A stretch of 64,000 nucleotides of DNA from Styela clava. Lineage: Eukaryota; Chordata; Ascidiacea; Stolidobranchia; Styelidae. Below the pieces are notes generated by a model that saw only the letters and a program-made list of their open reading frames with translations, did no database searches and had not been told where the DNA came from. How positions within the stretch are numbered: the first letter of the stretch is position 1; each line of letters opens with the position of its first letter. The translations under genes and the position numbers were made by a program. Shown one piece after another: positions 23-40,332 of this stretch. The stretch covers positions 13,228,151-13,292,150 of the forward strand of contig NC_135257.1 in assembly GCF_964204865.1 (NCBI RefSeq), given 5' to 3'.

Positions 23-737
23 AAATTGGGGAAATATTTCAATGATTTCAGGACTTGATAATAAATGCTGATCTGAATAAGCTTTTGTTAATTTCTATAT
101 CTATGGGTAATATTGTGATTTACGATAGTGTCAGTTTCTATTCAGAATGATTCTTAATTCTCTTGGGCTTGTTGTCATTAGGCCTTTAATTCTAATCATA
201 ATAATCAGTTAAATCTATTATTAAAATTTTCATCCAAATGTAGCCTATCTATAAATGTGAAACCTGAAATGAAATAAGGAAACCTGAGCTTTCCTTATTG
301 TGAAATCTAATCTTTCTTTCACTCCAAACACTAGTATTTGTACTTATTTTGTAGTTTCGTGCTAAAAGTTATAATTTCCAAACATACTTCATTATGTTTT
401 CCAAACATTAAATAATAACTCAGTTTGAATGATATATATAAGAATTTGATTAAAAAAAATGACTCCTTTTTCAAAATGTATTTCTTTTTCCACTGCAGTA
501 TTATAAAGTGCAAATTCTGATTAATATTCAAATATTACCGGTAAGTAATTTGACTGACTTTTTTCATAGCCCTGGTTTTGCATACTGCTATCTCTAATTG
601 CTTGTTTTCAATTCTATGCTAGTTTATTATTCTCATTTGTTTACGAAAAGTTATTAGTCTGTACATATCAAACCCCAACACTACATTTTTGAAGTTAATA
701 ATTAATTTTCCAACTGATTTAGAAATTAGTTACAACA
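23..737 (+). promoter_or_regulatory. Upstream region and probable 5'UTR intron of DNAAF2
   Basis: This stretch holds no convincing coding sequence. A good donor (GTAAGT) begins at 541 and an acceptor (ATTTAG) ends at 722, 16 bases before the DNAAF2 start codon, so a short leader exon ending at 540 and an intron of about 180 bases are likely. No TATA box is clear. The acceptor could instead receive a trans-spliced leader if the organism uses one; the sequence alone cannot decide. Confidence 0.4.
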
Positions 738-3278
738 ATGGAGCAAAAATTTGGTGACAAGTTAGGCTCGTTAGATTTAACTGATGATGAGATCAAGAGA
801 CTTGGTGAATGCATGAAAGATGATAAGTTTATGGATCTTCTCCGCGATTATACAATGGCAATTAGTGATCCAGAAAACAAAAAGAAGTATGAAGAAGAAA
901 TAGCAATGCTTGAAATAGAAAGAGGAAACGATGTCAAGTTTATCCATCCTTGTCCTGGTCATGTACTGAAAACAAGCAGAAATGGAGAAGATAAATGCTT
1001 TATCAATATATGTTCAAGTCCAAAAGTCGGGAAACCAGTCAGTAAAGCAACAGTTCAAGGTGCTACTCGTGGCATGCAATGGTCTATTCCTCACAGTCTA
1101 TCACAACCAAGAGAAGACAAGGATAAAGCGGGAGGGAATTGTTTTGTGTATGATGTTGTCTTTCATCCTGATACTTATCATATGTCGGAGAAAAATACAA
1201 GATTCCGTAAAATGATTCATGACATGGCGCTTGATGCGGTTGAACGTCTTTTCAGTGTGACGTTGGACAAAATTAATGTCAAAAAGCCAAAAATGAAGTT
1301 CAAAGGACTACCTCAAGCTTCAATAATAAGAACTCCGAGGGAGGATACAAGAGAGCTTGATGCCAAGATTGATGACCCAGATGATCCTCTTAAAGTTCCA
1401 TATCCTCCTACGCCAAATGGTCATGCACAAAAAGACACTGGAGCATCTACTAAAGCTAAAGAAAATGCTTCTGAAACTCCAAAAACACAGTCAAATAATA
1501 AATGTGACCACAAATTATTTAGGGAAGGACAATCAGATATTCTTCCTATTGTTTCGAGTGTTGTTGAAATTCAAAAAGAGGAATATGTGGAGCCTAAATA
1601 CACTATCGCACATCGAGGATATTTTGAAATGAGTGATTATTACAATGTCAATGAAAATAAAGTGCATTCTACTCGTCCCCGTGAGATTATTATGAACATA
1701 GAGTTGCCTATGCTGAAAGCAGCTTCTGCTTTGCATCTCGAAATATTTGAGGATAGGATTTTCTTGGAATGTGCCAAACCAGTCAAATATAAATTGAGCT
1801 TGAACCTTCCCTATGGAGTGGATGACAGCAAAGGTCATGCCAGATTTGATAAAAGCAAGCGACGTTTAACAATCACACTTGAAGTTCTTCCACCAAAAAG
1901 ATTGCAACTTCCGGCAATAGTTTCACAGGATGAAAATGCTTGCGGTTCTTGTTTCCAGAAAGAAGGGGAAAGCAAATCTGAACCAAAGAAAGAACAAAAT
2001 GAAGACCCTTCTGAAAATGATTTGCTACCATCTGACCATCCAAGTGGTCTAGTTCATGGACGTACACAATGTAGGCATCAAAATCATGGGGAGCTGTGGG
2101 ATGTTAAATATGAAAATGACTGGAACAAAGAGACTGACCTGGGAATGCTTTCTAACCCTTCACCATTCTTAGTTGAAAAATTATTAAATTATGAAATGGG
2201 AAAAAAGAAACCAAAATATGTGAAAGTACGTCCACAAATTTTTTATCACCAAGATGAAGCTTATGTAACCATAATTGTGAATATTAAACTTATCGATTCA
2301 AAGAAATTGTGGTACGTTTTGCAACACAATTGCCTTCAGTTTTCCTGCATGACAGACACCGATGAATTCAGCCCAGATTCAACTCGTAACATATATCAGT
2401 TCATGCTAAGTTTCAACGAAAATGATTTTGTCGACCCAAGACGATCTCGAGTAGATATTTCTTCTGAAAATGCAGTATTTTTACTCAGAAAGCATCTCAT
2501 TAGTTGGCATGAATGGCAGACAGTGAAAATGGGATTTGATTCTACTATGTTAAAAACAATCTCATTTGCAACTGAACAAAATATTAACGACCTCATTACA
2601 TCAGTTGAATCTCAAGTACAGAAGAACCGAACCCGAGAGTTTGAGTGTGAAAATATTTCTGATGGACAGAATTCAGAGCTACTTGCGTTGAAATTACTCC
2701 CTAAAGAGATTACCGATGAAGAGCGATTGCCCGGAGCAGAAGACGTGGTCGACGAACAGAATGTAGGTCACTTACCTGGACTTGAACCCGATCTCGTAGA
2801 GGCTCGTAAAGATAGAGATGAAAAAAAGAAACGCTCAATAAGGATCGATCATGAAAGAGTTATGTCAAAGACTTTAAACCTTGCCGGAAGCCATTTTGAA
2901 GTAGAAACGGATGAAGATGATGATTCTGATACTTATGAAACGGCTGATTCTTCATCTGAAGAGGAGAAGATACTTCGTTTTCGGAGAACTCGGAATGATT
3001 CTACTAGTCATGAGAATGCAACTCGAAAAAAAGACTCTCAAAGCAAAGAAAAAGTGGAAGAGGAGAAAGATGAATGCTTTGAGGAGGTGTTGGCAAAAAT
3101 CAATGCAAACGCTTTTCAGAAACTCAATAAAATGCAAGAAGATGCCAGAAAAAGAAATGAAACTATAATTTTCCGTGAATTTAAGAGAGGAGGTGGGGAG
3201 GAAAAAAAGACATTTACAAATCACTCTACTCGAACTAGAATTCGTCTCAATAATGAAATGCTGTTTGAAACTGATTAA
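738..3278 (+). CDS. DNAAF2: Dynein axonemal assembly factor 2 (kintoun), intronless
   Basis: An 846-residue protein in one exon, close to the usual kintoun length of about 840. Kintoun is a cytoplasmic co-chaperone factor that pre-assembles outer and inner dynein arms before import into cilia. The N-terminal region (residues about 10-60) has the helical segment typical of the family, followed by a PIH1 domain (about 65-210; HPCPGHVLKTS near residue 70 and FINICSSPKVGKP near 98). Residues about 287-385 look like the CS/p23-like domain, containing IELPMLKAAS and an L-NLPYGVD motif. The tail is charged and probably disordered, with an acidic stretch near 718-740. The ATG at 738 gives the conserved N-terminus. 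A leader exon probably precedes it. The uninterrupted CDS differs from vertebrate DNAAF2, which has introns. Identity is from recognised family sequence, not a search. Confidence 0.93.
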   Translation: MEQKFGDKLGSLDLTDDEIKRLGECMKDDKFMDLLRDYTMAISDPENKKKYEEEIAMLEIERGNDVKFIHPCPGHVLKTSRNGEDKCFINICSSPKVGKPVSKATVQGATRGMQWSIPHSLSQPREDKDKAGGNCFVYDVVFHPDTYHMSEKNTRFRKMIHDMALDAVERLFSVTLDKINVKKPKMKFKGLPQASIIRTPREDTRELDAKIDDPDDPLKVPYPPTPNGHAQKDTGASTKAKENASETPKTQSNNKCDHKLFREGQSDILPIVSSVVEIQKEEYVEPKYTIAHRGYFEMSDYYNVNENKVHSTRPREIIMNIELPMLKAASALHLEIFEDRIFLECAKPVKYKLSLNLPYGVDDSKGHARFDKSKRRLTITLEVLPPKRLQLPAIVSQDENACGSCFQKEGESKSEPKKEQNEDPSENDLLPSDHPSGLVHGRTQCRHQNHGELWDVKYENDWNKETDLGMLSNPSPFLVEKLLNYEMGKKKPKYVKVRPQIFYHQDEAYVTIIVNIKLIDSKKLWYVLQHNCLQFSCMTDTDEFSPDSTRNIYQFMLSFNENDFVDPRRSRVDISSENAVFLLRKHLISWHEWQTVKMGFDSTMLKTISFATEQNINDLITSVESQVQKNRTREFECENISDGQNSELLALKLLPKEITDEERLPGAEDVVDEQNVGHLPGLEPDLVEARKDRDEKKKRSIRIDHERVMSKTLNLAGSHFEVETDEDDDSDTYETADSSSEEEKILRFRRTRNDSTSHENATRKKDSQSKEKVEEEKDECFEEVLAKINANAFQKLNKMQEDARKRNETIIFREFKRGGGEEKKTFTNHSTRTRIRLNNEMLFETD

Positions 3279-3886: not shown

Positions 3887-6800
3887 ATGGCCACATACGA
3901 TAACACAGTGCAAGGTTTCAAACTATTCTTAGAGGATTACACAAAGACAGATTGTCCTACTGATGAAACACCTTTGCCTTTTCGTCCTCAATCATTTATC
4001 CTGACTGAAGATGAAATTAAAGGGGATGTGTTGGATTCATGTCTGAATGTATTAGACACTGCGTAAGTTTATTCAATTCTATTCTCTTAATTCTGCACCT
4101 CCGGTTGAAACAATTACTGTATATTTTTAGGTTCATATTTCAAACGTTGAATAGACCTATGTTGGTATTTGCTGACATTTCTAATGTCTATACAGACAGT
4201 CTTTTTCAGGGTAATTCTAAAGAGCAGTTAATATATAGTATATATTTCACACATGAAACAAATATTATTGTCGTCTATTTGAAAATTGGTTGGGATCAAA
4301 GAGGGAAACATTTTTTTAATTCTCGAATTAAATCTTATCAAAATATTGTGTTGGCATAGCAGAAAGATATTTTGTTTATTAGCCATAGAATGGGTTTCTT
4401 TATTAGTATGATAGGAACTTGTGGTAGTTATTCAAAATTTGTCCCAACCTATGTAATTCAATACATATACGATTGATGGTGTTGAAATTTTTAATAATTT
4501 GAATATTCTCAAATCCTGTACGTATTATTTGCAATATACAAAAAAGTTATTCGTATTAAATTATTCTGTAACCTCTACATTTGATAAATTGATTGGTTGA
4601 CTTGTTTCAATGAATGTGTGTTACTGAAGTTTATATATTCGCCTTTATATTTGTGTTGAATACGGTACTTTTATTTAGTCTAATTCATAATGTATGTTAT
4701 TATCATTTTCTATTATAGGTAATTTAATAATTGAAAAAGTAGTCTGTTTGTCTTGTCAAAGGGTGGAAATTGGCTATTACAAAACTATGACATATTTATA
4801 ATTTTCCCCCCTATTTGTTATGAACTGAAAGAATTTATGAACTTCACTACAGATCGGTCGTTGCCAATAACTCTAGGTTAATCTTTAACCAAATCTGGCA
4901 GTAACAGCGCGATGAAGTGATGCTTGTACACAATAGCTTTTGTTTGATAATATCATTCATATCCAAATAAAAGCAGATTTCAATGGTTTCATTTTTATAT
5001 ATTGTTCTTGTACATTTATCCACCAATATAAAACATCCGCACCTTGAAGGATATTTACCGACAGACAAGAAAAGTTTGTTTTTGAATGTTTGCACTGAAA
5101 ATAAAGAAATTTTAATTATGGTAATAAATCTAAATGTATTATGTTTGTTTTTGCAATAAAATAGAGTGTTGGCTGTTGCCACACAAACTTTCTTTGAACA
5201 TCGTCTGAGTAAATAATGGAAAATTGAGTTTTCCTAATCTTATTATTATATTTCTAAAATTCCTACAGTCTTCAAATTCATCAAATAGTTTAGAAATTAT
5301 TTTACCAACGCATATTACATTACAATTGTTATACCAAAGTTTAATATCGAGACATCATATAGGTGACCCCCAAAAAATAAACCTATATTTTTCGAAAATG
5401 AAAAAAATTTATTTAACAAATAAAACTTCTTTTTGTATTGTATTATGTTGTTTGTATTATGATTGTACCTAAAAGTTTCAGTAATTTTAGACGCTTTGCA
5501 CAAAACGATTTCAACTCAGCGAGAAATGTGAAATTTACCTTGCAAAGAATATCAGTTTTGGTGAACTAATACTATGATATTGAAGTGTATTAAATTGGAT
5601 TGGGCCATCTACCTGTGATATAGTACATATCTATTACTCTAGTCTCTTAAAATCTCTCCTGGTTCCACTTTAAAATTATTTTGATAGGTAATTGCTAAAG
5701 GGGAATAATACAATATCATGAAGTCCGTATGATCCACATTTTTGTGGAGAAGTACCTTATATTTTTTGCCATAAAATCGCAATTTCTGGAATTTCAATTA
5801 CTATTTTTCCATCAAAAGTATAATTCAAAATGCTTGAAATTCAAGTTGAATAGGCCTATAATTTATGTTTCTGGTAATATGATGAAAAATACAATTTCTG
5901 CCAGTCAATTTTTCAGGAATTTGATATTCCTCTTACGAAAAAATTATCACCATTCTTACACATCCATTTTCTCATGATGATTAATGTATAATGCATGTTG
6001 TGTTTGACAGTACAAATATTCTTTCAGACAATGTCCAGAGTTCCTCAAGTATTCCATCGCAAATGAAGTCGGAAACCACGTCATAGCTGGCGGTCTAGAA
6101 CAATACAAAAAAGAAATTCAGAATGTAGATTTCGAAACACCATGCACTTGTGAGCATTAAATTGTATTGTCCAAATTCATTTCCTCCATATAGCATTGTT
6201 TAAGGTACTTCGAAGTATGTGAACCAAGATGGCGGACACTGAAACGTAGTATGTGTACCTGGTTAGGGTTAGGCCATAATTTCAGGTACAAATACTACGG
6301 GAGTCACTTGGCTAGTCCCCGAACTTGTAATAGAACCAAAATAAGGAAAATTGGAATAAACTTATGGCCTAACCCTAACCTGGTACACATACTACATTTC
6401 AGTGTCCGCCATCTTGGTTCACATACTTTGGGAGTATCTTAAATAAGGTATGTTTTTAGTGCATGGTAGTTAATAATTTTGTTTTCGTTCCCAGATTATT
6501 CAGCAATAGCAATTGCCAAAGTATCTGTCATTGAAGTTCATCACTTATGCGAAAAATGGAAAAATGATTTTCCCGGTTTTAAAATTCCAGTGTTACCCAC
6601 TTATTCTGTGTGCGGGATTAAAAATACTCGACGGAAAATGGAAGACAGGCACACTGTGATCACTGACCTCAATGCATTACTTGATATAAAAGTAGGTTCA
6701 TTTACATTGTACTTTTTATCCTATTCTATTATATATGGAATATTGGGTTTCTTCTTAGTCCTACCACTGCTACCAGGGATTCCTACGTAGACATTTTGTT

Positions 6801-9800
6801 TTCTACTCTGAAATATATTTTATTTTAATTTGTTTATATTTTTTGCCCTAAAATGAAATGCTGAAATTTTCTGAATTTTTTATTGATTGATAACATTTAC
6901 TACTGGTATTTAGAATTAAAAAAAAAACAGTAATCAGCTAGCAATATTGTAAATCTTGCTAGCTGATTACTATTTTTTTTGCAAATTTTAAACACCAGTA
7001 ATAAATTTTTAGTGATTTATTTCAGATTCAGATCAAATACATATTTACTGAGTTTAAAAAAATATCGATTGTATAAAATTTCCAATGTATTCAATATTCG
7101 ATAATTCAATATTTCTGAAGTTAATTAAAAATGAACAAATACCTATCTTTGAAGACTAATGTAGTATCTCTTGTAATTTTCATACATCGTATTCACAATA
7201 ATTTTGCAATTCAAATATTTAAGGACATGCCACACACACAGTATTATGGGGTATTCGATGGTCATGGTGGATTGGATGCTTCTGTCTATTCTTCAAAATT
7301 TTTGCACTTGAGACTTGCTCAGCATGAATTGTTTAAAACCGATGTACAACAAGCTCTTAAAGATACCATTCTACAGCTCGATAAAGATTATTGCGACAAG
7401 TCACAACGGGATGTAAGTCTTATCTTGTTCAGTGTTAATAAATGTTTGTGTATTATTTCTTGGAAGTTAACAAGTATGATAAAAACACAATTCAATCGAA
7501 AGTTTGTGACATGAAATTTTTTCTTTATATCTATCAATGGGGGCAAATTAAGACAAATGGGATGAATGTTGAATTTTTGATAAAAATTTCATTTGAAAAG
7601 ACGCAGTTTTTTTTTTAAGATGGTTTATTTTTAATCATAATTGCGGCAATATTGATCAAATTATTTCGATAAAAAGTTATAGGAAATTGATGAAAATCAA
7701 AAATGATATTTTCTAATTTATTCAAAACAGCTTTTTCAAGTTTCGGCCTTGTGGATCAAAGCCCTCAAATAGTAGGATATCAGTGATCATTATGTTATAT
7801 ATTGCATTGCCACACATCCAGCAACATTGCTCTCATTTTTCATCTCATGTTTCTGCTAAATCTCAAACATTGCATAAGGATTTTATTCTGTTCTGACAGT
7901 TTGTGGTCACTTTTGACCCACAAGTCATCTCCGGAATGCTTTGAAACACAAATAAATCTTTGTTATTTTAGATTTGTTGGTTCTTGTGCTCAGTCTAATT
8001 TCTTCGAGTGCTTTTAACAATAGTAATATAATATATTTAATGCCCACATTATTAATATTATTAGTATAAAATGATGCTATTAAATATTCCTGACCCGTTA
8101 TCAAAGGAGTTGTCGGATATAATTTCAAATAATTCATAGTATCTTTTGTGATAAATGTGGACATCGTGGCAAAAGCATTACAGCAAACTATGAGGTTAAA
8201 ATCTCGATTTCAAATTCCATGCCCATCACCCAGGATGTAATAAACTGGGTGGACAATGCTAACCCAGAATGATTTCTGACCTTCCAAATTATCGTAGCTC
8301 CTTACCTAGCAGTGGCTGCTTGTACAAAGCCTATTTTAGAGCAAAATGGTAATATAAATCAATAGTGATATAAAATTATACAATGTTATAAAGCATTATA
8401 AAGAATCACTGCACATAATTACCTAATTTGTCTCTGCATTAGTTTTATTAAACCAGTTTTATAAATATATTTACAGAACTTGAGAAGTGGTACTACAGCA
8501 GTTATTGCTGTCATCAGAGAAAATAACCTATATGTTGCTTGGATTGGTGACAGTCAAGCTGTCTTGGTTCGAGATGGTAATCCTGTTCAAGTTAGTCTTT
8601 AATTTACCTTTTTGGTTGCGGATAGGTAAACTATTGACTTTTTTTAAACAATACATTTCGCCTATGTTTGTGTCACTTTGTACATATATAATACAGAGCA
8701 AATTCTTCTTTTTTTATTTATTAAATTGACTCAAATAACAGATGCTTGAATTTGTGTTTATTGTATTGTTCAATACTAATAGGTCACAAATGTTGCAATA
8801 ATATCTCCAGTACATAATTACATGCAATTATGGCATTTAGGTGTTTCACACAGGTTCGTATGAATCCGATCTTGCAATGTCGAGAAAATTAGCAAGCCTT
8901 TACCTATTTTAAGACATTAGGTGACATTGGCTCAGATGCACCAAAGCTAACGACTGGCGTTATATTTGAAAGTTCGAATGTTTTATATAAGATCCATGTA
9001 AAGAGTGTCATGTTATTGTTTGTGTCATTGTTCTTATCATGTAATTTGATGTTAAGTTCAGTTATTGTTATCTGTACTCCCGAAGTATGTGTACCAGGTT
9101 AGGGTTAGGCCATAATTTCAGGTACAAATACTACGGGAGACACTTGCTAGTCCTCGAACTCGTAATAGAACTAAAATAAGGAAAATTGGAATAAAATTAT
9201 GGCCTAACCCTAACCTGGTACACATACTACGTTCCGGTGTCCACCATGTTTGACAAACCATGTTAACTTTAGCAGTTTTTATCATGGCTTACTGTAAAAC
9301 AGGTCCATAGGCATCGCTCTATGCTTTTGCTATAAAAAATGTAGGTGCTTATTGTGACATCACTGTTGGGTTTTAGCTTATTTCACTCAATACCACCACA
9401 TGACCAAACTCAAAAATCCAGTGAAAGGAGCTTTAAAGTTTCATGAAAAATGTATATATATATATCGACATGGGGTCACACTGGACACTTGAAAGTTGTC
9501 TTTGGGGTCATCCTGTAAAAAGCTTGGTTTAGTTCATATATTTCGTGTACATGTTCTGTGTGTAATATTCTTCCTGAACTCTCTTCCAACGCATTAATTT
9601 TCATAGTTGATGGAACCACACAAGCCTGACAGAGAAGATGAAAAGCATAGAATAGAAGAATTAGGTGGATGTGTTATTTGGTTTGGTGCTTGGAGAGTCA
9701 ATGGCACATTATCAGTCTCAAGAGCGATAGGTGAGTGTTTTAACCAGAGATGTCTAAACTGGATAGAATATTCGAATCAATTCTAAAAATATTGTATTAT

Positions 9801-17056: not shown

Positions 17057-18508
17057 TTAGTCTTTTCCGAGCTTTCTTGGTAATGGATTAACCAGAATAC
17101 TATCAACAAATTCAAAGACAGTGTGAGGATCCTGATCAGCATTAATCCTCACTGAACCATCATCTCTATAATATTCAGTCAAATCTTCAGAATACACGTG
17201 ATAGTCTTCCAGTCTTGAACGAACTGTTTCCTCTTTATCCTTGGGATTTTGCACACAACGAGCTTTTACATCAGCAGTTCGAGGAGGATTAAAAAGAGTG
17301 TGGTATCTTTCACCACTTATCGGATCTGTCAAGCGGTAACACAATCGTTCTACAATTACGTCATCTGGTATGTCTAAAAAGTATACTCTATTCGGTTTCA
17401 AACCACTATCGGTCAAGTTTTCTGCTTGTTCTCTTGTGAGTGGGTAGCCATGTAAGACCCAACCTCTTGTAGTAGCATCAAGTTGTGTTAACCTATCAGA
17501 AAGTATCTTGCTAACAAGATTGTTTGGAGGTTTTTGTTCTTCTTCGACATATTGCCTGACTGCTTCTCCTAGTCTTGTCTCATCTGCAACTTGCTGTTTA
17601 ATCAGTAATCCACAAGACACATCAACAATATTATATTTTTGAGCAAGTTGTGCTGCCACAACACTTTTGCCACTGCCTGTTGGACCAATTAAAACAATCC
17701 TTGGTGTATGAGCGGCTTCGGATCGTTGACGAGTATTAATGAAAGAGATTGCTTGAGCAAGAACATCCACTTTCGGTTGATCAGCATTCAACTTCTTGCA
17801 AACTTTTGCGTATGTGTTTGAAATTCCATCAGCATTTCTATTATATTCATCTAGCCTTTCTTTTGTGTCTGTCTCTGACATCTTGTCTGGCTCAATCAGT
17901 CTGGCTTGAATATTAACATCTTGTGGCCAATCAAAAGTTGTGTGATAAACATCACCAGTTATGGGATCAACTCGTTTACCACCTTGGCGTTCCATTAAAA
18001 CCACATCAGGTGCATCCAATATGATAGCATGTGTTGGCATTATTCCATAACTTTGGAGTGCGTACGCTTGGGATCTATTTCTTGGAAATCCCTCCAAGAT
18101 AAATCCTCTGCGCAAGCAGTCTTTTCTTTTTACTCTGTCTCTGATCATTTGAACCCATAATGTGTCTGGAACTGGCTTCTTTTCTGCGAGCAATGCATTT
18201 GCCTTCTTGGAATGTTCTGAAAGTTCATCTGACAGTATTTCCTGTTCTGTTACAAGCACTGAGTTGATTTGCTTGCTTAGAGTTGTACTTATACATGTCT
18301 TTCCGCTCCAAGGTGGGCCAACGACCACGATTTTAGTCGTGTCACTGCTGTCTCTTTTAAGCCAGTCTATCATGAACTGAATGGGATCATCAGGTTTTTC
18401 AACTATTACTTGACTGAGAAGGCGTTTGTACATATCGAATATTTCATGTTCTTCTGCGTACACTCCAAATTCTGGAGGTATTCGTAATGGCTTTTTACTA
18501 GTATCCAT
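17057..18508 (-). CDS. AK8: Adenylate kinase 8, intronless
   Basis: A 483-residue protein with two adenylate-kinase-like modules in tandem. It starts with the AK8-specific N-terminus rich in IPPEFGVYAEEH. The first P-loop is GPPWSGKT (64-71) and the second GPTGSGKS (275-282). Each module has its own substrate and lid elements: GFILEGFPRNR (135-145) and KRVDPITGDVYHT (178-190) in the first, GWVLHGYPLTREQA and LTDPISGERYH in the second. AK8 interconverts AMP, ADP and ATP and is linked to motile cilia. Length agrees with vertebrate AK8 (about 479). The uninterrupted CDS is notable because vertebrate AK8 has many introns; both P-loops are intact, so nothing suggests a pseudogene. AATAAA lies on the minus strand at 16974-16979. 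Confidence 0.94.
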   Translation of the reverse strand: MDTSKKPLRIPPEFGVYAEEHEIFDMYKRLLSQVIVEKPDDPIQFMIDWLKRDSSDTTKIVVVGPPWSGKTCISTTLSKQINSVLVTEQEILSDELSEHSKKANALLAEKKPVPDTLWVQMIRDRVKRKDCLRRGFILEGFPRNRSQAYALQSYGIMPTHAIILDAPDVVLMERQGGKRVDPITGDVYHTTFDWPQDVNIQARLIEPDKMSETDTKERLDEYNRNADGISNTYAKVCKKLNADQPKVDVLAQAISFINTRQRSEAAHTPRIVLIGPTGSGKSVVAAQLAQKYNIVDVSCGLLIKQQVADETRLGEAVRQYVEEEQKPPNNLVSKILSDRLTQLDATTRGWVLHGYPLTREQAENLTDSGLKPNRVYFLDIPDDVIVERLCYRLTDPISGERYHTLFNPPRTADVKARCVQNPKDKEETVRSRLEDYHVYSEDLTEYYRDDGSVRINADQDPHTVFEFVDSILVNPLPRKLGKD

Positions 18509-19518
18509 GTTTTGCTGTAGAACAAACTACTACCGTATCGTAATAAAAGAGCAGTATGAAAAGTTTGGACGATAAACGACGTCGTTGTCATGGGAGACGT
18601 TGACTATTTTGGGAGTCGCTTATCAGAAATCCGGTTGAGGTGCCCGAGAACGGCAACTTGTTTTACTGTCCTAATGAGAACTGCAACTTGTTTTACCGTC
18701 CTAATACGATATTGTCGTCGCATCTCATGTAGATAATAAGAGTTGATTAATATGTCAAGCGCCATATACCGTACGTGGCCTCTTCTGTAGAGAGAAATCG
18801 GGCCCCTAGTCTTGGTTTTTAGCGCAGTTACACAAGTCGCGTGCTGTCAATCAAATGCAGTGTAGTACTGCGGAAGTGTGATTCATTCAGTCACTTACAT
18901 AGATTGCCAGACATAGGACTCTCGATCATTATAGAAAAGTCAATGCTATTTATCTGTGGGCCTACGCACAAACAATGTAACAGGCTTTGTTTTATCATTC
19001 TACTACACGTGACTCAGGTTGATACTGGTAACCTTTTGAACGATGTGTATAGATAATTTTATAAGCAGTACTGGACTCCCACTTATCGCAGGGCGATTAA
19101 CATGGTCTCCAGTTGATACAGCTTCCTCAACTGACAGAGCCACAGATATGCAACAAATACCTGGTCAACTATTCACATGTCCAACCTGAACAAGTCTTCT
19201 ACTACGAAATGACTATGAAAATAGTGTTCAGACCTTTGTGCAAATCAACACTTCTAAACAGCCCAATACTCATGAAATACCAATGAAACAGTTTCGCAAA
19301 ATTTGAACCTTCATCTTTATATGTCAAGAGCAAGTTTTTAAGCAATGTCGTATATCTAACCGCGCCAAACACTAGAATCCCCAATGGCCAACACAAAACT
19401 CCAGATTTAAAAATTCTATTTTATTCTTGATTGTTTTCATTCCCTATACCACACACTCCATATATTTCCAACTCTGGCAATGCTTCTGCATGATGCAAAA
19501 TAGTAAACATGTTAAACT
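18509..19518. other. AK8 upstream region and EIF3E downstream region
   Basis: About 1 kb with no ORF resembling a protein. The part next to AK8 (18510-18850) is relatively CG-rich and probably its promoter; it repeats the phrase ACTGCAACTTG/CGGCAACTTGTTTTAC around 18650-18700. TTTATT at 19420-19425 is a candidate minus-strand polyadenylation signal for EIF3E. Confidence 0.4.
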
Positions 19519-23453: not shown

Positions 23454-24938
23454 TTTAAATTTAATTGGAATAACTATACCTATATAACATAAAGAAAAAT
23501 TGAACCGTTTTAGTTTCCTAATTGATTTTTTCAAGTGGACTATATTTTAATTTAACTAATTGATTATCTTTTTAGAAAGAATTACACTCATTTCCCTTTT
23601 CCGAAATGTCTAATTTTAGTCCGTGATCTCAGCTGTCGGAATATCCAAATCATTTTCACAAGCCTGCAAACATCTAAACTTTCTCAAATTTGAGCAAATC
23701 ACTAGTAACGCAACTTGCATGCAGATCGTACAAATGAACTTTAGGATACTTCTAATTTTATAATATTGATCTATTCATTTAAACGAGAAGTAAACAATCA
23801 TACGGTGGGTACCCCTGAAATAAAGCACACAAATTCTCCTTTTCCTGTATTATAGCCACGCGAGTGTTCGAGTGATGGTGTTGAATGACGTCACTAGGGT
23901 TCAAGCATGCCTTGTCAACGCATCCTTTGTGGCCAAAGACATATTTTGTCTACTTCAAATGGCTAATTCGGTATATAAGGATGATTTTTCATTATTATTA
24001 TTTGTTTTATCCTATATTCATTTGTTTGTAGACAGCAATAACGCAAATAAATAATGCAGTAGTCAAAAATCAAGATCAAGGGGTCAAGGGTCATAGAAAC
24101 ATCACAAATACTTTGATTGTAACCGAAGTGAATATAGTCATTCATTAGTCTGTCACTTTGATTGTAACCGCCTAGCATCAAATTATGCACTCTTTCCCGA
24201 TAGGCAGTATTTTTGTTTCCGTAAATCGATTTCTTGCAGAATTCCCACAGCGAAAAACTATTTAAGCGTTGGTCTAATGACTCTAATTACATAATTAATG
24301 ATGTTAGACCGCCATATTTCAGAATTTACTTTTTTCTGTTTGTCGCAAATTTCTACTTACCTAATTCAAATTCTTTCCCCAACAACTCAAGGTAACAATC
24401 CCCAAACTACTCTACTGCTGTTGAAAAGAAGTTTTTCACTTCGAAGCTAGCTGTATCAGTATCTGAGTATACAGCAGGTTTATTGTCTAAGACTGAAATG
24501 ATACTGGTATTTAGTTTATATCAGTCCTAACTAATCTTCGATACCGTAGTCTATTGATTTCAATGAAATTCCCTAAAATCTGACATTCGTTTTAATGAAT
24601 GCATGTTTGCTAAAATGAATAACGCAATAAATTAGAAGCTATGACAGTATGACTATGAGAGATTCATGCTGATGTAAACCAGTTGTGTATAATCATAATT
24701 TTTGAACATCAATAATTTTTATATCAAAATATGTAAAACTTCAACTAAAGTTTGTCAACAATTAGACAATGGTTGTATGAATGACTATTATATCGATATT
24801 TAAAAAATATATATATAATTTTCAAATGCTGATTTATTCTAAATATTAATTTCGACTAATGTAAAAACTCATCTAGTCAGTGATTTCTCAATGTATTCCA
24901 GATGAAAAAACAGTTTGCATTAATTACATAAATAAAAA
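23454..24938. promoter_or_regulatory. Divergent upstream region between EIF3E (-) and GID8 (+)
   Basis: The two start codons are 1.5 kb apart and face away from each other, so both promoters lie here. A TTCCAG acceptor ends at 24900, 38 bases before the GID8 ATG, which suggests a GID8 leader exon upstream or trans-splicing. Short ORFs here (for example 23872-24054) have no protein-like features. Confidence 0.4.
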
Positions 24939-25625
24939 ATGGATGTGACAATGCAAGAAGAGAAATCTCCACAGAACGATAAAGAAAAATGGGTTGAAGA
25001 GATGGAAAATATGCACATTGAATCTGCTATTATGAACAGGTTAATCATGGACTATTTGGTAACAGAAGGATACAAAGAGGCTGCAGAGAAATTCGAAATT
25101 GAAGCAGGTATAAGTGCTTCGGAATGCCTGAAAGGAATCGAAGGTCGAATTAAAGTTCGAGATGCAATATTGAAAGGGTGTATATCAGAAGCAATCTCAC
25201 TCATCAATGATCTGCACCCTGAGCTTTTAGATGATGACAGAGTGTTACTTTTCTATCTGCAGCTTCAGCAGTTAATTGAACTCATACGTGAACACAAAAC
25301 GGAAGAAGCGTTGGAATTTGCCCAAACAAGTTTAAGTGAACGTGGTGAAGAAAGTCCAGAATGCCTTGTCGATATGGAAAGAGCTTTGGCTTTGCTGGCT
25401 TTTGAAAAGCCTGAAGAGTCGCCATTTTTGGACCTTTTATGCCCTGCACAAAGGCACAAAGTTTGGAGTCGTGTCAATGCTGCAATTATGGAATATGAAA
25501 ACAAAGAATCTGTACCTTGCCTAACAAAATTAATAAAGCTTCTAATATGGTCTGAGTCTCAGCTTGAGGCAAAAGGAGTGCATTATCATAAGATGAATGA
25601 TATTTCGAAGGGAGAAGTTTCTTAA
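24939..25625 (+). CDS. GID8: Glucose-induced degradation protein 8 homologue (TWA1), intronless
   Basis: A 228-residue protein, the usual GID8 length. GID8 is a scaffold subunit of the CTLH/GID E3 ubiquitin ligase. LisH motif at about 27-58 ([21 protein letters not shown] region), CTLH motif at about 66-125 ([20 protein letters not shown] onward), then the CRA region (about 120-205) with [16 protein letters not shown]. The ATG at 24939 is followed in frame by MQEEK, and the family core starts near residue 16. No intron interrupts the CDS, unlike the vertebrate gene. A polyadenylation signal AATAAA lies at 25972-25977. Family sequence is strongly conserved. Confidence 0.94.
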
Positions 25626-31741: not shown

Positions 31742-33611
31742 CGATTGTGGCACCTGGGATGTGCAATGTGCTTAACTCGCTATAGCGAAAATGTATGTAT
31801 TTCTCTGGAATATTTTTATGGTATGGCTGTATGTGACACTTTCGATTCTGTTAGCAACGGACAATGTGATAGCCGTGAAAAAAGGCCCTGAAAAACGCCT
31901 AGAAAATGAGTTTTGTAGCGCACATACAGGAACTACCTGGAAATGATTCTAAAATGTTCCTTAGAAATTTAGTAACAAATAATGCCTTGTTCCCACTTCC
32001 AAAAGTTGCAAGTTTAACGGAAAGGACGCTTTTACTACAAGAAATATGTGCTACGATCTGTCCTATATTTTCTACATTTCCGGCAATGACTTCTGCATGA
32101 CGTAACAATTGAATTAAATCAGCTGTTAACGAGAGAATTTATTTTTTTTTTTTGCGTTGAGTTGGGTAGCCTTTCCATAGCTCTATTATTGTTATTAGTT
32201 AAGTTATGCTAAGACGTTGTTAAAAAGTATAAGTAAGTTGTTAAACATTTGTAGATCCTTACCACGGATATAGGTCGTGAGACGAGGGCTTAAATAACGT
32301 CCAAAAATGAGTTTTGTAGCACACATCTGGTAACTAAATGAATTCTTTAGTTTTGTATGAAAATGAACATACTGAACGCATTACAGCTTGTTCCACAATC
32401 CTGATGCGAAATTGAATATAAGGTGTTGCGTAAATTCAATAATCATAGGTTTACAGAGAGAGAGTTTATTTGTTTTGTCTACCAGACATCATATACACAA
32501 CAAAAACATGAATGATAATAAGCGGAACAGTTCTCGGTATAGACTGCGGGTGATAACGATACGACCATGCGATCATCAGAGTCAGTTACCACCCAACATT
32601 AATATCAATAAACATGAATAAAAAATGCTTCAGATATGTTTTAACATATTTTAGGTGTGTCCAAAAACAACATTAAATTTCCATGGAAAGAAAGAAAAAA
32701 TACTAAAATATTTTCTTATACACAATAGGCGTTTAAAGTTAAATAGAATTTCGGGGATGTTGCACACTTGATCAAGTGTGGTATTGGTCAAATTTTATAT
32801 GGATATGTATTTTTGAGTATATGGATGCATGAATTGCGTGGAATTGGGTTTTTAAAGTTGAAGGATACACAATAACTTTTTGTGTAAATGGTGGAAGACT
32901 TTAGGCAGCATATATATGAAGACGTTAAACAAAATAACTACAAAGTAACAAAATAAATTTGAACAGTTTATAAGGTTCAGAGAAAAAGGAAAAAAAAAAG
33001 CAAAATCTCAAAATTGAGCTTAAGCTGGGACATGCAAAATAATACAACAACGCAGCATAAGAACTATGTAATTCAAGAGGCCTACAGCACACTAACACAA
33101 ATGTATTTCTGTAACGTCTTGCCTGACCAAAATCAGACTTCCTCAGTCAACCATAATTTATTAGGTAAATTACGAAAAATATGCCATACATGTAACCAAC
33201 AACAAAAAATACTTTAATTGTGTGACAGCAGTCTCGAGGGACCTCGAAAGATCCTCAAGCAGCGACAACAACAACGCCGATTCAGATTAGCGAATAAATT
33301 TTATGTAATAACAACACATGAGCAGTTTACAACAAGAACAGCATAAGAAGTTTGCGTTGCATTCATTTTATAGAAGCTATCAAACGTAATCATTTTTAAG
33401 CAATGAAGTCACAAATCAACATCGTGAGCACAATAACACAAATAAATCAGTTATTTCTCACTTAGAAATTTACCGGAAAAGTAAAGAAAATTAAATGAAT
33501 GTACATTATGTACATAACATAGTGAACAGAAATGTTACAATTAGTCTTTTTTTAGTTTATGTGGCTATGTATTTGAACAAAAGCAATATTATTTCTCTGG
33601 TACCAAAGTTA
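31742..33611. other. Intergenic stretch left of the Rehavkus-like element, with one doubtful ORF
   Basis: Upstream of the FAU start. A 64-codon ORF at 31906-32100 (+) begins MSFVAHIQELPGND, and a mirror ORF on the minus strand (31899-32108) is equally long; I cannot recognise either. The start region of the plus ORF (about 31895-31927) recurs at 32300-32327. A word pair GATAACGATACGACC at 32535 recurs at 46665. Other ORFs (32388, 33014, 33495) look like chance. Confidence 0.3.
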
Positions 33612-33799
33612 CCCCAGCAGACATCACTCTCCTTTTTGAACGCGCCTATCACGGTTGCAAGAACTCAGATTTCAATTGAGCGATGCGAGAGTTTACGAAA
33701 AAAGCATCGATGCAAAATCAGCTGATGCTTGATGCTTTGCCAGATTGATCATGAAAACTGTGAATAATTGCCAAAAAAATATAGTTCTCCCCCAAATAT

Positions 33800-34720
33800 C
33801 AGTGTCTTACACATATATCCGCTTAGTATAATAAAAATAAGTTTAAGTGCTTATAATAAGAAGTAAAAACAACGAGTTTGACAAAGATTGGATAGGTGGG
33901 TGATATATTTATTATCTTTAAAACCTGGCCCAGTCGTCAAATTTTAATAAAAATGGCAAAAAGACCTATTTTGCCCCCAAAAAGATGTGTCTTACAATCA
34001 TGTCATCTCCATTTATAAATAAACAGCAGTAGAACATATAATAAAGTGTTTATACAACGAGTTTCAAAAACTTTGTATGGGGAGAAGATATTTTTATTAT
34101 CGTTTAAAGTTTAAACATGGCACGATAGTCAACTTATTAAAAAAAATGGCAAAATGACCTATTTTAACTCAAAAATGATTGTCTTACAATTACGGGCCCC
34201 TCATTTACACGAAACAAGCAATAGTACATATAATAAAGTGTCAATACAGCGAGTTTGAAAAAGTTTGTATGGGGGGAAGATATTTTTATTATCGCTTAAA
34301 CATGGCCTGCTAGTCAATTCATGATAGAAATGGCAAAGAAAAACTATTTTGTCACAAAACATAAGTGTCTTACAATTACGGCCCCCCCATTACACAAGAC
34401 CAGCAGTAGTACATATAATAAAGTGTTTATACAGCGAGTTTGAAAAAGTTTTTATGGTGAGAAGATACTGTAATTATCGCTCAAACATGGCCCGCTAGTC
34501 AATTTAATATAGAAATGGCAAAAAGATCTATTTACCCCCAAAAAATGAGTGTCTTACAATTACGGGCCCCTCATTAACACAAGACCAGTGGTAGTACATC
34601 TAATAAAGTGTTAATACAGCAAGTTTGAAAAAGTTTGTATGGCGGGAAGATATTTTTATTATCGCTTAAACATGGCCCGCTAGTCAATTTATGATAGAAA
34701 TGGCAAAAAGACCTGTTTTT
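33800..34720. repeat. Left tandem array (about 185-bp unit) of the Rehavkus-like element
   Basis: TGTCTTAC anchors occur near 33803, 33987, 34174, 34365 and 34549, so spacing is 184-191 bases. The first unit is the most diverged. The array is the inverted counterpart of 37665-38880. Confidence 0.9.
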
Positions 34721-34965
34721 ATAGTCGGGAAGTAATGACTAAATTTAAAACGTTTTATGTACCCAAAATTTGATTTAGGCAAGTTTGGTACAACAATAGG
34801 CTATGAAAAGTATAAGCATTTTACGCAAAATCATCGGTCTCTAACAAACATAACTTAGCAAAAGATAATCAAACACAGGGGAATCAAGGAGAAAAGTCAA
34901 CTGAAGCTAAAGCGTACTCGTTTCAACAACAGGTGGTTTAAACGTCTTGATGGAATCGCTGTAGT

Positions 34966-36174
34966 CAGGGGCGGATTATGCCCCTTTGGTGCCCTAAGCA
35001 CTAAAGACTTTGGTACCCCCGTATGTGTAATTCGATTATAAAAACAACAAAACCACATAAGTGTATTATCCATTAAAAATAAATCACAACCAACAGTAAA
35101 TAAAACAACTTTTACGAATATTTTTAGATTTTTTAACTGGTATATACAGCGAAAACTTTTGAGAAGGTCTCGCGGGCCGCAAGTCGGAGAAAACCCAAAA
35201 GAAAATATCGCGAGTTTACTTACTTTTGATTAATAAACAACGAGAGTTTACCGTTCTGATCAGACCAATATCATGCTGCACGGGTGGCGTGAACCTTCAG
35301 CGAGGACAAGCTTAATAGTGCCATCGTCAAATAACCACCGAGTCCGTCTAAGTTGGTATTTCGGGACCTTGCAGAAAAAAAGGGATTGCGCGGCGTTAAG
35401 TCGGCTCTGCGTTTCGTCACTACTGTCACATGGCCTACGCTTAAAAACAGAGGAGTGTTTTTACTAAAATAAAGGCACAAAGCGTTAGAAAAAAGGGGTT
35501 TGAATCTCGGGATTTCAACCCCTATTGGAATATATAAAAAAAAAAATAAAAAAGCCCTGCTATTAAATACAAATATACACTAAAATTGTTCTGTGGGCTA
35601 CACGTAAGGTACCAGAATGTCAGGGTTTGGACCACCCTGGTCTACCTTATCAAAAACTCCCGACTACGCTGATCACTAGATCGTTAAAATGCGATCGTGG
35701 AACCGCCACATAGTGCAAATAGTTCATTGGTTCAATTTTTAGAGAGAAAAAAAAGCAGCAACAAGGAGAATACTAGAAAGAAAAAACAATTTTACAAAAC
35801 GACTCATAGGCCATTTCGTGTCCAATAAATAAGTTTCAGTGTTTATTTTCGATAAAGAAGATAATATATTACTTGAAGACGAAAAATAAGCGAAAATTTG
35901 GAAGTTTGAGTCGTATGGTGAATTCGTAATATTTTAAACGAGAATATCGGTCATAGACCGAGGACTTATCGATCAAAAGTTAGGGGATCCCCCAAAACAG
36001 CGCTCTTACTGTATAGTGACACCTCGTGTCCCATCACTAATTAATTAATAACTCGCTAATTAAGCGACATAATTCGCCCAAAATAAATAGGCTTCTGGTC
36101 CGAGATATGATGAATGCACATGAAATATCTGGAGCAGATTCAATCTTGTTTTTGTGAGATACCGCGTGCATCTA

Positions 36175-36211
<37 letters not shown>

Positions 36212-36360
36212 TACCTATCAACATACTTACCGATTAAAATCGATAAGTAATAAACACCGATAAAATATTTAAAATTCTGCTATAAAAATTTCTGTGGTGC
36301 CCCTCTTTGCTTGGTGCCCTAAGCACGTGTCTATGTTGTTTAATGGTTAATTCGGCACTG
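34966..36360. mobile_element. hAT element inserted in the Rehavkus-like coding region, perfect 8-bp target duplication
   Basis: Starts CAGGGGCGGATTATG and ends TTAATTCGGCACTG, flanked by GCTGTAGT at 34958-34965 and 36361-36368. CAGGGGCGGAT is a common hAT terminus. TTTGGTGCCCTAAGCAC near the left end recurs in direct orientation near the right end (about 36310-36327). The 1395-base interior has no transposase ORF and carries a CAGA microsatellite at 36176-36209. Confidence 0.92.
36176..36209. repeat. CAGA microsatellite
   Basis: Eight to nine uninterrupted CAGA units inside the hAT element at 34966-36360. Confidence 0.95.
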
Positions 36361-37664
36361 GCTGTAGTGTATGATCAACTTCATAATTCCCTAATTAGGG
36401 AGTCTCAGGATAATTTGATTGTTCGTCTCGAAAAAAGGAAAGTTGAAAACAGAGACCAAATTGACCAAGAAATTGAGAAATGGGGTAAAAGATGTAGAAA
36501 TATGGGTAATGATAAATCGAAAGGTATATATTTATAGCCACCGTCTAGACCTCTGAAAGCTTCTTGCCTAATGTATTGATCGATAAAGATGTATTGAAAA
36601 CGGAAATGATATGTGAGGCGTCTTCTCAGTCAATGGCATTTGCGATTTAGTTCATACAAAATTGATTTTCAAAACTTGGTACATATGTCCAACGTTGGCT
36701 TTGAAATATTGAGCTCCGATACTAATTTCCAAAGGAATTGGTTCACATCGGACATTATAAATACCGCATCGCTAATTTTGTCATCGCAGTACCCAAATGC
36801 TGAGGGCCTTCAAAGCACGACACTTTATACCACAATATCTGGCCCAAAGGTCCACGCTCCCTGATAATCCCTGGGTAGCTGCGACAAACATATTTTCGTT
36901 CAATCAGAATACCATTCAAATCTATGATAGTTCGTACTTGAAATACACAGAAAATGACAAATATGCTATTTCGCTTCTCATGCGGCCAACATTAGGAACA
37001 AACAAACTACAGATTGAATTTCCTCTCGTCCAGCAACAAACGTTAGATGCATCATGCGGACCATTTGCAATAGGTTTTTGCATAGCTTTATGCAAAAGAA
37101 TTAGACCAGGGATATAGTTTTTGATGAGATAAAGTTCTAAAGTTCTAAACGATTTTCACCAAATTTCAATATCGACCGAAACCACAATAAAACTAATACG
37201 AAGTTCATGGTTATTCAGATATTTTTGTAACTGCCGACTGCCCTACATGCAAAATCAGACTATGATAGATTGCACTTCATGTTTGGAATGGTACCACCCG
37301 GAATGTTGCAATACTCCTGTGCCAACTGAGGCACTGGAAGATTGCAAAATTGAATGAAATTGCGAGAAATGCAATCGATGCTAAATTTTTCCGTTATATA
37401 TTCACCATAATCCTAACTCCAATTATTTTTCAGGTCCATCAGCTTCATGGACACACAAATGATCAGTCTAATTTACCTTTAGCAATATATGCCAAAAATA
37501 AGGGTTTTCTCTCTCGATCGTCGCCAGTTTTGAGAGATGAAAACCACCACGGTAGTTGGCACCTTGACGTGGTATGGTGGCTTACTACTGAGACCAACTA
37601 TTTACCCAATGCAGTGGGTGTGTTTTCCACCCCGAGTGTAAGTGGGGAACCCTGATTATAAAAC

Positions 37665-38880
37665 ACTTATTTTTTAGGGGCGAATTGCCATTTTTTCCCC
37701 ATAAATTCACGATCGAACCATGTTTAAACGAGAATAAAAATATTTTCCCCCATACAAACTTTTCAACACTTGGTTACATTTACTACTGCTGGTCTTGTGT
37801 AAATGGGGGGGGGGGGGAAGGGGGGGATTATAAGGATATGTAAACATTTATAATAAATAATATAGCACAAGTTATGGTGCATGGAATGGTTAATTTAATT
37901 GTAGGGCACCCTCTTTTTTGGGGCAGAATAGGTCTTTTCCCCATTTTTCTCATAATCTTTTATCGGGCAATGTTTAAACGAGAATAAAAATATCTTCCCC
38001 CCATACAAACTTTTTAAAATTCGCTGTATTACAATTTTATTACATGTACTACTACTGGTCTTGTGTAAATGTGGGAACCGTAATTGTAAGACACTCATTT
38101 TTTGGGGCAAAAGAGGTCTTTTTGCCATTTCTATCATAAATTGACTATTGGGCCATGTTTAAGCGATAATCAAAGTACCTCCCCCCCCCCCCCATACAAA
38201 CTTTTTTAAACCCGCTGTTTAAACACTTTATTATATGTTCTACTACTGGTCTTGTGTAAATTTGGGGACCTTAATTGTAAGACACTCATTTTTGGAGCAA
38301 AATAGGTCTTTTTGCCATTTCTATCATAAATTGACTAGCGGGCCATGTTTAAGCGATAACAAAAATATCTTCCCCCCATACAAACTTTTTCGAACTAGCT
38401 GTATGAGCACTTTATTATATGTACTATTGCTTGTTTTGTGTAAATGATAGGACCGTAATTGTAAGACACTCAATTTTGCGTGAAAATAGGTCATTTCGCC
38501 ATTTTTTTTCATAAGTTGACTATCGTTCCATGTTTAAACGATAATAAAAATATCTCCCCCCCCCCCCCCCCCTTACAGACTCGTTGTATAAACACTTTAT
38601 TATATGTACTACTGCTGTTTTTGTATAAATAGGGAGGACCATGATTGTAAGACACATCTTTTGGGGGGCAAAATAGGTCTTTTTACCAATTTTAGTAAAA
38701 ATTGACGACTGGGCCAGGTTTGAACGCTAATAAATATATCTTCCGCCCAACGACTAACATACCGCTTCCACCCATCCAATCTTTTTCAAACTCGTTGTGT
38801 TTACTTCTTATTATAAGCACCTATACCTATCTTTCTTAAACTAAGCGGATATATTTGTGAGACACTTATATTTGGGGGAG
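37665..38880. repeat. Right tandem array of the Rehavkus-like element, inverted to the left array
   Basis: Units are anchored by GTAAGACACTCA near 38088, 38276, 38460 and 38648, with diverged units on both sides. Each carries CCATGTTTAARCGATAATAA and CCCCCATACAAACTTTTT. Poly-C or poly-G expansions occur at the same unit position (37804-37827, about 38178-38190, about 38556-38572). Confidence 0.9.
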
Positions 38881-39072
38881 AACTATAATTATTTGGCAAT
38901 TATTCACAGTTTTCATGATTAATCTGGCAACCCATGAAGCATCAGCTGATTTTGCATCGTCTTCGTAAACTGCATGTCTTTTTCGTAAACTCTCGCATCG
39001 CTCAATTGAAATCGGAGTTCTGGCAACGGTGATCGGCGCGTTCAAAAACGAGAGAGATGCCTGCTAGGGACC

Positions 39073-40332
39073 GCTGTGAAGCTAGTAGCAAACGTACCGC
39101 TAGCCAAAATTATTAAATTTTGATGGCTTACGTTCGAAATGTGTGGAAAACTTGAGTAGGCTACCGGTAACCCTTTTTTTTATTTTAGTGCAATCTCATG
39201 CCTCCTAAGTCTGTAAGTGAAGAACATGCTGCTGGACTTAACACCTTTTTGATATAACTTCTGAACTTTATGTAATTTTAATAAATATTGGCTGTCTGTT
39301 AGAATGACCTACCGGTAAATTTAGAATGCTTAGGTTCGAGTTGTGTGAAAAACTAGATCTTGATTATTTAACAATAAAAGCTCATGCCGCTTGAGCGGGA
39401 AGACATTCCACTACAGCGAAATTGCTTTTGTTGTTTTCAATTATCAAAACTCCCACTTCGTTTTTATCGGAAAATTCAACCTATTCTATGTGTTACTGCA
39501 TTAGATTCTATGTTCAAAAATGGTGTTGAAACTTTTCCTTCAATGCTGTAATTTTCGCTGCAGCAAATTGAATAAGGCTGTTTTTATAATCGTAACTCCC
39601 ACTTTGTATTTACCGGAAGATTCAATTTGTTAAGTTGACTTACAGATATTAGTTTTAAATTTCAACTTATTCTGCTTCTTCCGCTTAAGGTTCAGCTTTT
39701 CAATGACTTCAATCATCTCACCTTTTGTCGGAAGTAATTTCATACACTTCTTCCTTTCAGGGTTCATCCTTATAGTTATAGTGACTTAAACCACCTTAAC
39801 TTTCGCCGGAAAAATTTCATTCATTTGTTCTTTTCGGGGTTGACCCTTTTAGTGACTTCAGCCACCCCACCTTTTGTGAGAATAATTTTCCTCCACTTCT
39901 TACTTTTAGGGTTCAACATTTTAGTAACTCCAACCACCTCAACTTTTCATTGGAAGAAATTTCATCCATTTCTTCTTTTTAATGTTCAGCTTTTTAGTGA
40001 CTTCCCATCCTCCTACAAAAGAAATTTCCTTCACTTCTTCTAGTTTTCAGCATTTTAATGTTCCTCAATTTTCCATTTTTTGGGACACTGCAACTTCCAT
40101 ATTTAATTCACTTCATTCGTTTCTTCCTTCAGCCTTTTAGTATTCTCCACCTGTTTCTGATTACTTTGAATTTTATTTCGCGATCCCTATAAAATTATTA
40201 ATATTCGAATATTACATATGAGACAAATCTTTGTTTCCTTGTCTCGCTTTCTTTCTTGTTCACTATGCAATTTATCTAAAAATTTTTTAGATTGTACTTC
40301 ATGTCATTGAAGGCTATATTTAAAATTGGGAA
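39073..40332. promoter_or_regulatory. Upstream region of the RAB15-like gene, with a degenerate minisatellite
   Basis: No ORF of interest. Two similar passages with AACTCCCACTT and TTATCGGAAAATTCAA (39440-39480 and 39585-39625) precede a minisatellite at 39685-40060. Leader sequence of the Rab gene probably lies in the last few hundred bases. Confidence 0.4.
39685..40060. repeat. Degenerate minisatellite, about five units of 72-76 bp
   Basis: The unit reads roughly GGTTCAGCTTTTTAGTGACT, then TCAACCACCTCACCTTTT, then GGAARAAATTTCATCCACTT, then CTTCTTTTCAG. Units start near 39688, 39760, 39836, 39908 and 39980, with a decayed sixth near 40045. Substitutions are frequent, so it is old. Confidence 0.8.

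Follow-up and report, generated by a model that had tools for sequence, protein, structure and literature searches.

A decayed Rehavkus-type transposon in the genome of Styela clava, and probable episodic copying between the mirrored repeat arms of its relatives

Rehavkus elements are DNA transposons of animals, a kind already described but little studied. Rehavkus-1_TC of Tribolium carries tandem arrays in its inverted termini, with a 164-bp unit and mostly five and eight monomers (PMC10218199, PMC6446971), and a minisatellite is described near the 3' end of Rehavkus elements (PMC6446971). The foldback-like elements Galileo and Tetris, too, have long inverted ends with internal repeats, and arms-only derivatives and chimeric ends are described for them; the authors proposed exchange between ends (PMC3573991, PMC4079207). 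The Tm1 Mutator/Foldback element of Meloidogyne combines a 9-bp duplication with composite ends and unequal numbers of tandem repeats, and the two ends of one element are reported to be 93.15% identical on average (PMC3169594). For the insertion sequence ISWpi1 of Wolbachia, flips of the interior and levelling of the ends via recombination between inverted ends have been described (PMC3004938).

The Styela clava elements described here share with Rehavkus the 9-bp duplication, a PHD finger in the transposase, arrays in the inverted termini and, in family 2, a 3' minisatellite. In this comparison of structure, they differ in a unit of about 185 bp (186 and 193 bp in other families), in arms of up to 38 units, and in the presence of a second, SGNH-like gene in relatives of the element, whereas the published table lists one ORF (PMC10218199, PMC6446971). 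The likeness to Galileo in the repetitive ends is accompanied by differences in superfamily (P), duplication length (7 bp) and transposase (PMC3573991, PMC4079207). Tm1 differs in its 13-15-bp repeats and Phantom-like transposase (PMC3169594), and ISWpi1 is a bacterial insertion sequence with 23-bp ends and no arrays (PMC3004938).

The window, by which we mean the whole analysed stretch of 64,000 nucleotides, contains one such element, with the following features.

33602..39069, + strand (that of the transposase remnant): whole element, an internally deleted old copy, from arm alignment, inverted pairs and remnant
33593..33601, no strand: 9 bp before the left terminus, the expected spot of a target duplication; no right-hand partner found
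33602..33868, + strand: left (5') outer inverted repeat, terminus ACCAAAGTTACCCCAGCAG
33869..34719, + strand: left array of ~185-bp units, four full and one partial, from TRF and unit profile
34717..34932, + strand: transposase remnant, residues 977-1057 of the 1423-aa relative
34966..36360, no strand: nested hAT-like insertion of 1395 bp, from its ends and 8-bp duplication
36358..37381, + strand: transposase remnant, residues 1065-1423 of the 1423-aa relative, in broken frames
Frame 36776-37117, + strand: C48-like piece within the transposase remnant
About 37211-37381, + strand: PHD-like piece within the transposase remnant
37636..38798, - strand: right array, inverted, of ~184-bp units, four full and three partial, from TRF and unit profile
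38768..39069, - strand: right (3') outer inverted repeat, overlapping the outermost unit by ~30 bp

The element, decayed and internally deleted, is one copy of a DNA transposon of Rehavkus type that is dispersed in the genome. An earlier note on this DNA had described about 5.5 kb bounded by inverted termini, and the two arms are indeed related: the left arm aligned locally with the reverse-complemented right arm over 33612-34717 and 37927-39069 (~1.1 kb), with 969 identities in 1092 aligned columns and 15 gaps comprising 65 gap positions, and a repeat search of 33000-39800 returned 44 inverted pairs, the longest of 234 nt at 91%. The mirrored arrays reported at the same time, five units on the left and six or seven on the right, were recovered with the full and partial units listed above; TRF placed them at 33869-34719 (period 185, 4.6 copies) and 37911-38749 (period 184, 4.5 copies). 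The left terminus lies at 33602 (ACCAAAGTTACCCC), slightly outside the start given earlier, and similarity on the right ends at 39069, short of the full terminus by ~10 bp. A 9-bp target duplication was sought at both flanks of this copy and was not found. Its interior covers 447 of the 1423 residues of a transposase-like relative (the C-terminal third), in pieces 49-69% identical with broken frames, and the transposase core is absent. The C48-like and PHD-like pieces that had been read in the interior are present, though their frames are broken and the C48 piece alone gave a sub-threshold Pfam match (E 0.063).

The window copy is split at 34966-36360 by what its ends and 8-bp duplication, the only features on which the class is based, indicate to be a later hAT-like insertion. 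The duplication, GCTGTAGT, lies at 34958-34965 and 36361-36368, and the insert has short inverted ends (CAGGGGCGGATT and CAGTGCCGAATT). This insert did not appear in the earlier reading of the element.

A search of the genome (376.6 Mb) with the left end of the window copy listed 41 matches, and among the best 40 of 58 candidates scored there were at least 18 loci with both ends, the window included, and at least four with one end. In a second search, the best 33 of 508 candidates were scored. Given that both searches scored the best candidates only, the copy numbers are lower bounds. We compared the 17 other two-ended loci (E01-E17) and the single ends E18-E20; the fourth single end was L002 (C16:19054002). 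The terminus ACCAAAGTTACCC was found, within one mismatch, at both ends of all 17 two-ended copies, and was not found within two mismatches at the E18 end. The 9-bp target duplication predicted for full copies was perfect in 14 of these 17, the others being E12 (8/9), E17 (7/9) and E16 (one inserted base). It was also perfect in C16, an element of a second family, and no target duplication was found at the ends of a further relative, C18. A pattern scan of viral contigs for relatives gave 194 matches, none of which was related.

Between two stop codons, the reading frame of E15 is open for 1423 aa, and the frames of E02 (1230 aa) and E08 (1182 aa) were ~99% identical to its product. The C18 transposase was 70% identical to the E15 protein, and the C16 protein 41% identical over 962 columns; the open frames of C16 (1278 aa) and its sister element C13 (1267 aa) were 86% identical to each other. 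Pfam assigned Peptidase_C48 to the E15 protein above the cut-off (1.3e-5) and did not report it in the family-2 C16 protein. Histidine, aspartate and cysteine residues of the C48 region, which we take to be the catalytic ones, occupy invariant columns, the C16 protein included. The PHD match was above the cut-off in C16 (26.6 bits) and under the 24-bit cut-off in E15 (20.3 bits). Against the PDB, the E15 finger matched PHF2/PHF8-type fingers (PHF2, 8.3e-7; 5.6e-9 for the isolated stretch), with retention of a tyrosine, a methionine and a tryptophan that are presumably the methyl-lysine cage residues. Finally, D, D, CxxH and E are invariant among three proteins of these elements, and we assume that the three acidic residues with CxxH form a putative catalytic DDE-like core of MULE type.

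The MULE domain itself (PF10551) gave no Pfam match at E<=1 in the E15 or C16 proteins, none of the 82 PF10551 matches across the genome fell at an element locus, and an hhalign comparison of one MULE protein with a profile of three rows revealed no similarity; because such profiles are shallow, this is weak evidence of absence. The Rehavkus reading of the earlier note is supported by structural traits, namely the 9-bp duplication, the PHD finger, the C48 domain in family 1 and the arrays in the inverted termini, and not by the MULE domain. Family 2 has, in addition to its arrays, a 74/85-bp minisatellite 3' of the frame; TRF reported no 3' minisatellite in 21 family-1 stretches.

A second gene, split and SGNH-hydrolase-like, is conserved among relatives of the window element. 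In E02, two exon-like stretches lying 5' of the transposase frame matched a GDSL-like profile in order, at 5.6e-5 (profile positions 57-106) and 0.038 (125-175), both under the curated cut-off. Both stretches are also present in E04, E05 and E15, and they were found in C18 at 67 and 56% identity and in C13 at 48 and 46%; C16 and E08 have the second stretch only. With Pfam alone, the family-2 frames gave no GDSL match. The conservation of this gene across families suggests that it has a function. A text search that covered few subscription papers found no earlier report of an SGNH/GDSL gene in a DNA transposon.

We analysed array units in copies other than E12, E18 and E20, the arrays of which are disrupted or single-ended. 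Units had to span about 160 profile positions or more to be included, and this cut-off shifts the 5' unit numbering in E14, E15 and E19; the orientation of E03 was assigned by hand, and that of E07 rests on 29 residues. The near-equal unit numbers seen in the window arrays did not prove to be a rule: arms contain 4 to 38 units, those of one copy differ up to 4.8-fold, and the correlation between arms was not significant (Spearman 0.28, p 0.30; 16 pairs, E01 and E19 left out). Shuffling of the arm pairings gave P 0.047, so any excess similarity in unit number over random pairing is slight at most.

Most family-1 copies show no current levelling between arms, which look separate at present. When the arms of 11 young copies were labelled by coding strand, 324.5 of 332 units best matched same-side arms of other young copies. 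Of 495 family-1 units, 275.4 were closest to a unit in the same-side arm of another copy and 17.8 to one in their own copy's opposite arm, of which 14.8 were in E01. The two arms were significantly segregated (P<0.05) within 12 of 18 copies, the remainder being E01, E06, E13, E17, E19 and the window copy. Arm-to-arm identity in the window copy is 90.8%, compared with 91.2 and 93.1% to the best ends of other copies; this copy is too old, and too short, to show any special arm-to-arm similarity. Position is kept in both arms by the outer repeat and the two units next to it, inner units lack a mirrored order (one of 18 copies was below P 0.05), and parts of the 185-bp unit are more conserved than others. 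E01 and E03 are almost arms only; in E01, units 1-7 are mirrored at 98-100%, and in E17, units 2-4 are mirrored at 97-98%.

A tree of 39 ends required five changes of side, versus one for a single history without exchange, and two of the five were forced by well-supported branches, the support values being rough. One cluster (99/94) joined the 3' ends of E10 and E16 to the ten youngest copies' 5' ends, and the 5' end of E07 together with both ends of E01 clustered with 3' ends (92/89). Identities of the outermost unit agreed with the tree on these changes: the 5' unit of E07 was 97.8% identical to the 3' type and 93.9% to the 5' type, and the 3' units of E10, E16 and E17 were 97.2, 95.6 and 96.7% identical to the 5' type versus 95.5, 93.9 and 93.9% to the 3' type, respectively. 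Such changes are expected with crossover or conversion between arms. Given that the 9-bp duplications of E01 and E07 are perfect, the change of side in these copies would have occurred inside one element or before insertion. The tree leaves out the stretch with a 14-bp terminal duplication. The two ends of the window copy had appeared as sisters in an alignment disturbed by that duplication, and the grouping disappeared when the stretch was excluded.

Over longer times the arms behaved differently from what the young copies show, as judged from one element for each sister lineage. C16 and C13 are 91.1% identical in coding sequence and 82.3% at 4-fold sites (17.7% of 385 sites differ), whereas their array units are 64.5-65.7% identical, a divergence of ~35%. 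Within C16 the arms are 91.4% alike and within C13 92.8%, and 31 of 49 units in C16 and 10 of 17 in C13 were nearest to a unit of the opposite arm. The arms of C18 are 89.9% alike and 59.7-60.6% alike to family 1, with the opposite arm nearest for 6 of 9 units. A comparison of the 193-bp C16 unit with the 185-bp family-1 unit revealed no homology. Units that are ~65% identical between sisters and 91-93% identical between own arms indicate that the arms of an element evolve in concert, and the identities in all three elements indicate that arms were brought together after the lineages split. On this sequence evidence, the concert is probably the outcome of episodic arm-to-arm copying.

Several other explanations were weighed against such copying. 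An element could have begun with two copies of one arm that then drifted without exchange. The young family-1 copies, with their 324.5 of 332 same-side matches, fit this history; the ~65% identity of C16 and C13 units between elements, versus 91-93% between own arms, does not, nor do the ends that change sides on the tree, and a fresh start in every lineage would itself amount to repeated arm copying. We therefore consider a one-off origin unlikely. Strong selection on binding sites could instead hold the two arms alike with no copying at all, given that one transposase serves both arms of an element and that conservation is uneven along the unit. The arms have nonetheless remained alike while units diverged by 35% between sisters, versus 17.7% at 4-fold sites, and variants that look silent yet are shared, as in the mirrored tract of E01, require copying, so that selection by itself appears quite improbable. 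The protein pieces might also have belonged to a host gene, SENP-like or with a PHD finger, that happened to lie between unrelated repeats, since C48 and PHD are host domains too and the nearest PDB fingers are those of PHF2/PHF8. Arms and coding region, however, have dispersed together with 9-bp duplications, which rules out the SENP-like gene and makes a host origin of either kind hardly credible.

The account that we favour, and regard as probably correct, joins the two conclusions: the window copy is a decayed Rehavkus-type transposon of a kind in which the arms are made alike again at intervals. The 1423-aa protein, with its DDE-like core, C48 and PHD domains, would cut at the ACCAAAGTTACCC termini and generate the 9-bp duplications; the 185-bp units may act as accessory binding sites, by analogy with what has been reported for Galileo repeats, and the PHD finger may steer insertion through a histone mark. 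Unit number would shift fast within an arm, largely independently of the opposite arm, and likeness would be regained now and then when the inverted arms copy from, or exchange with, each other; each restored state would then be propagated by transposition. Gene conversion, crossover that swaps ends, and template switching in gap repair are all candidate routes. For the question raised in the earlier note of how the two ends are kept alike, the results give part of an answer: they point to episodic exchange and away from steady levelling.

A broader proposal is more tentative, and we put it at slightly short of even. The Rehavkus arrays would form one evolving unit that changes faster than 4-fold sites but in step, since each arm would template the repair of the other when the element is excised or a gap is filled, and arm types would be able to swap sides; the elements would also constitute a two-gene group, in which a conserved SGNH-hydrolase-like gene plays an accessory part and the transposase may choose insertion sites by recognition of a histone mark through its PHD finger.

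Several unrelated superfamilies contain transposons whose inverted ends are long and repetitive, and these raise the question of what keeps the distant ends similar. Ends of this type are also a potential source of satellite DNA and of rearrangements. A conserved hydrolase-like gene carried by a cut-and-paste transposon would have an accessory role that calls for explanation. The genome of Styela clava holds enough copies and sister families for the evolution of ends to be tested from sequence alone, and in it the ends are separate lineages over short times and move together over long times.

The array unit was 185-193 bp long throughout family 1 (the family of the window copy), the related lineage C18 and family 2, but despite unit lengths within this range no sequence similarity was found between the family-1 unit and that of C16, a family-2 element. 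Two family-1 copies, E01 (locus L009, 7.4 kb) and E03 (L012, 6.2 kb), consist almost entirely of inverted array-bearing arms, with a spacer of <300 bp between the mirrored arrays. A third, E12 (L025/L026, joined positions 5140-8813), is a single copy with arrays in mixed orientation, possibly reflecting a nested or rearranged second copy.

Features of the window element, its surroundings and a related locus, L010, were as follows.

Window 34966-36360: nested hAT-like insertion, lying within the element and accompanied by an 8-bp duplication, GCTGTAGT
Window 39675-40004: 72-bp tandem repeat close to the element, on its right side
L010:5408-5767 and 6065-6325: split SGNH/GDSL-hydrolase-like gene (putative), upstream of the transposase frame
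L010:6532-7545: 49-aa repeat (DNA period of 147 bp) in the NH2-terminal part of the transposase frame

The hAT-like insertion makes up approximately half of the interior of the window element. Judged by eye, the minus strand of the 72-bp repeat would translate into a repeat of 24 aa. Long frames at window positions 723-3278, 17057-18526 and 24936-25625 resemble, on visual inspection, host genes of the Kintoun, adenylate kinase and GID8 types, respectively.

Copy number of the 49-aa repeat differs between elements. The split hydrolase-like gene is also present in loci L029, L039, L037 and L044, and three lineages keep it upstream of the transposase frame.
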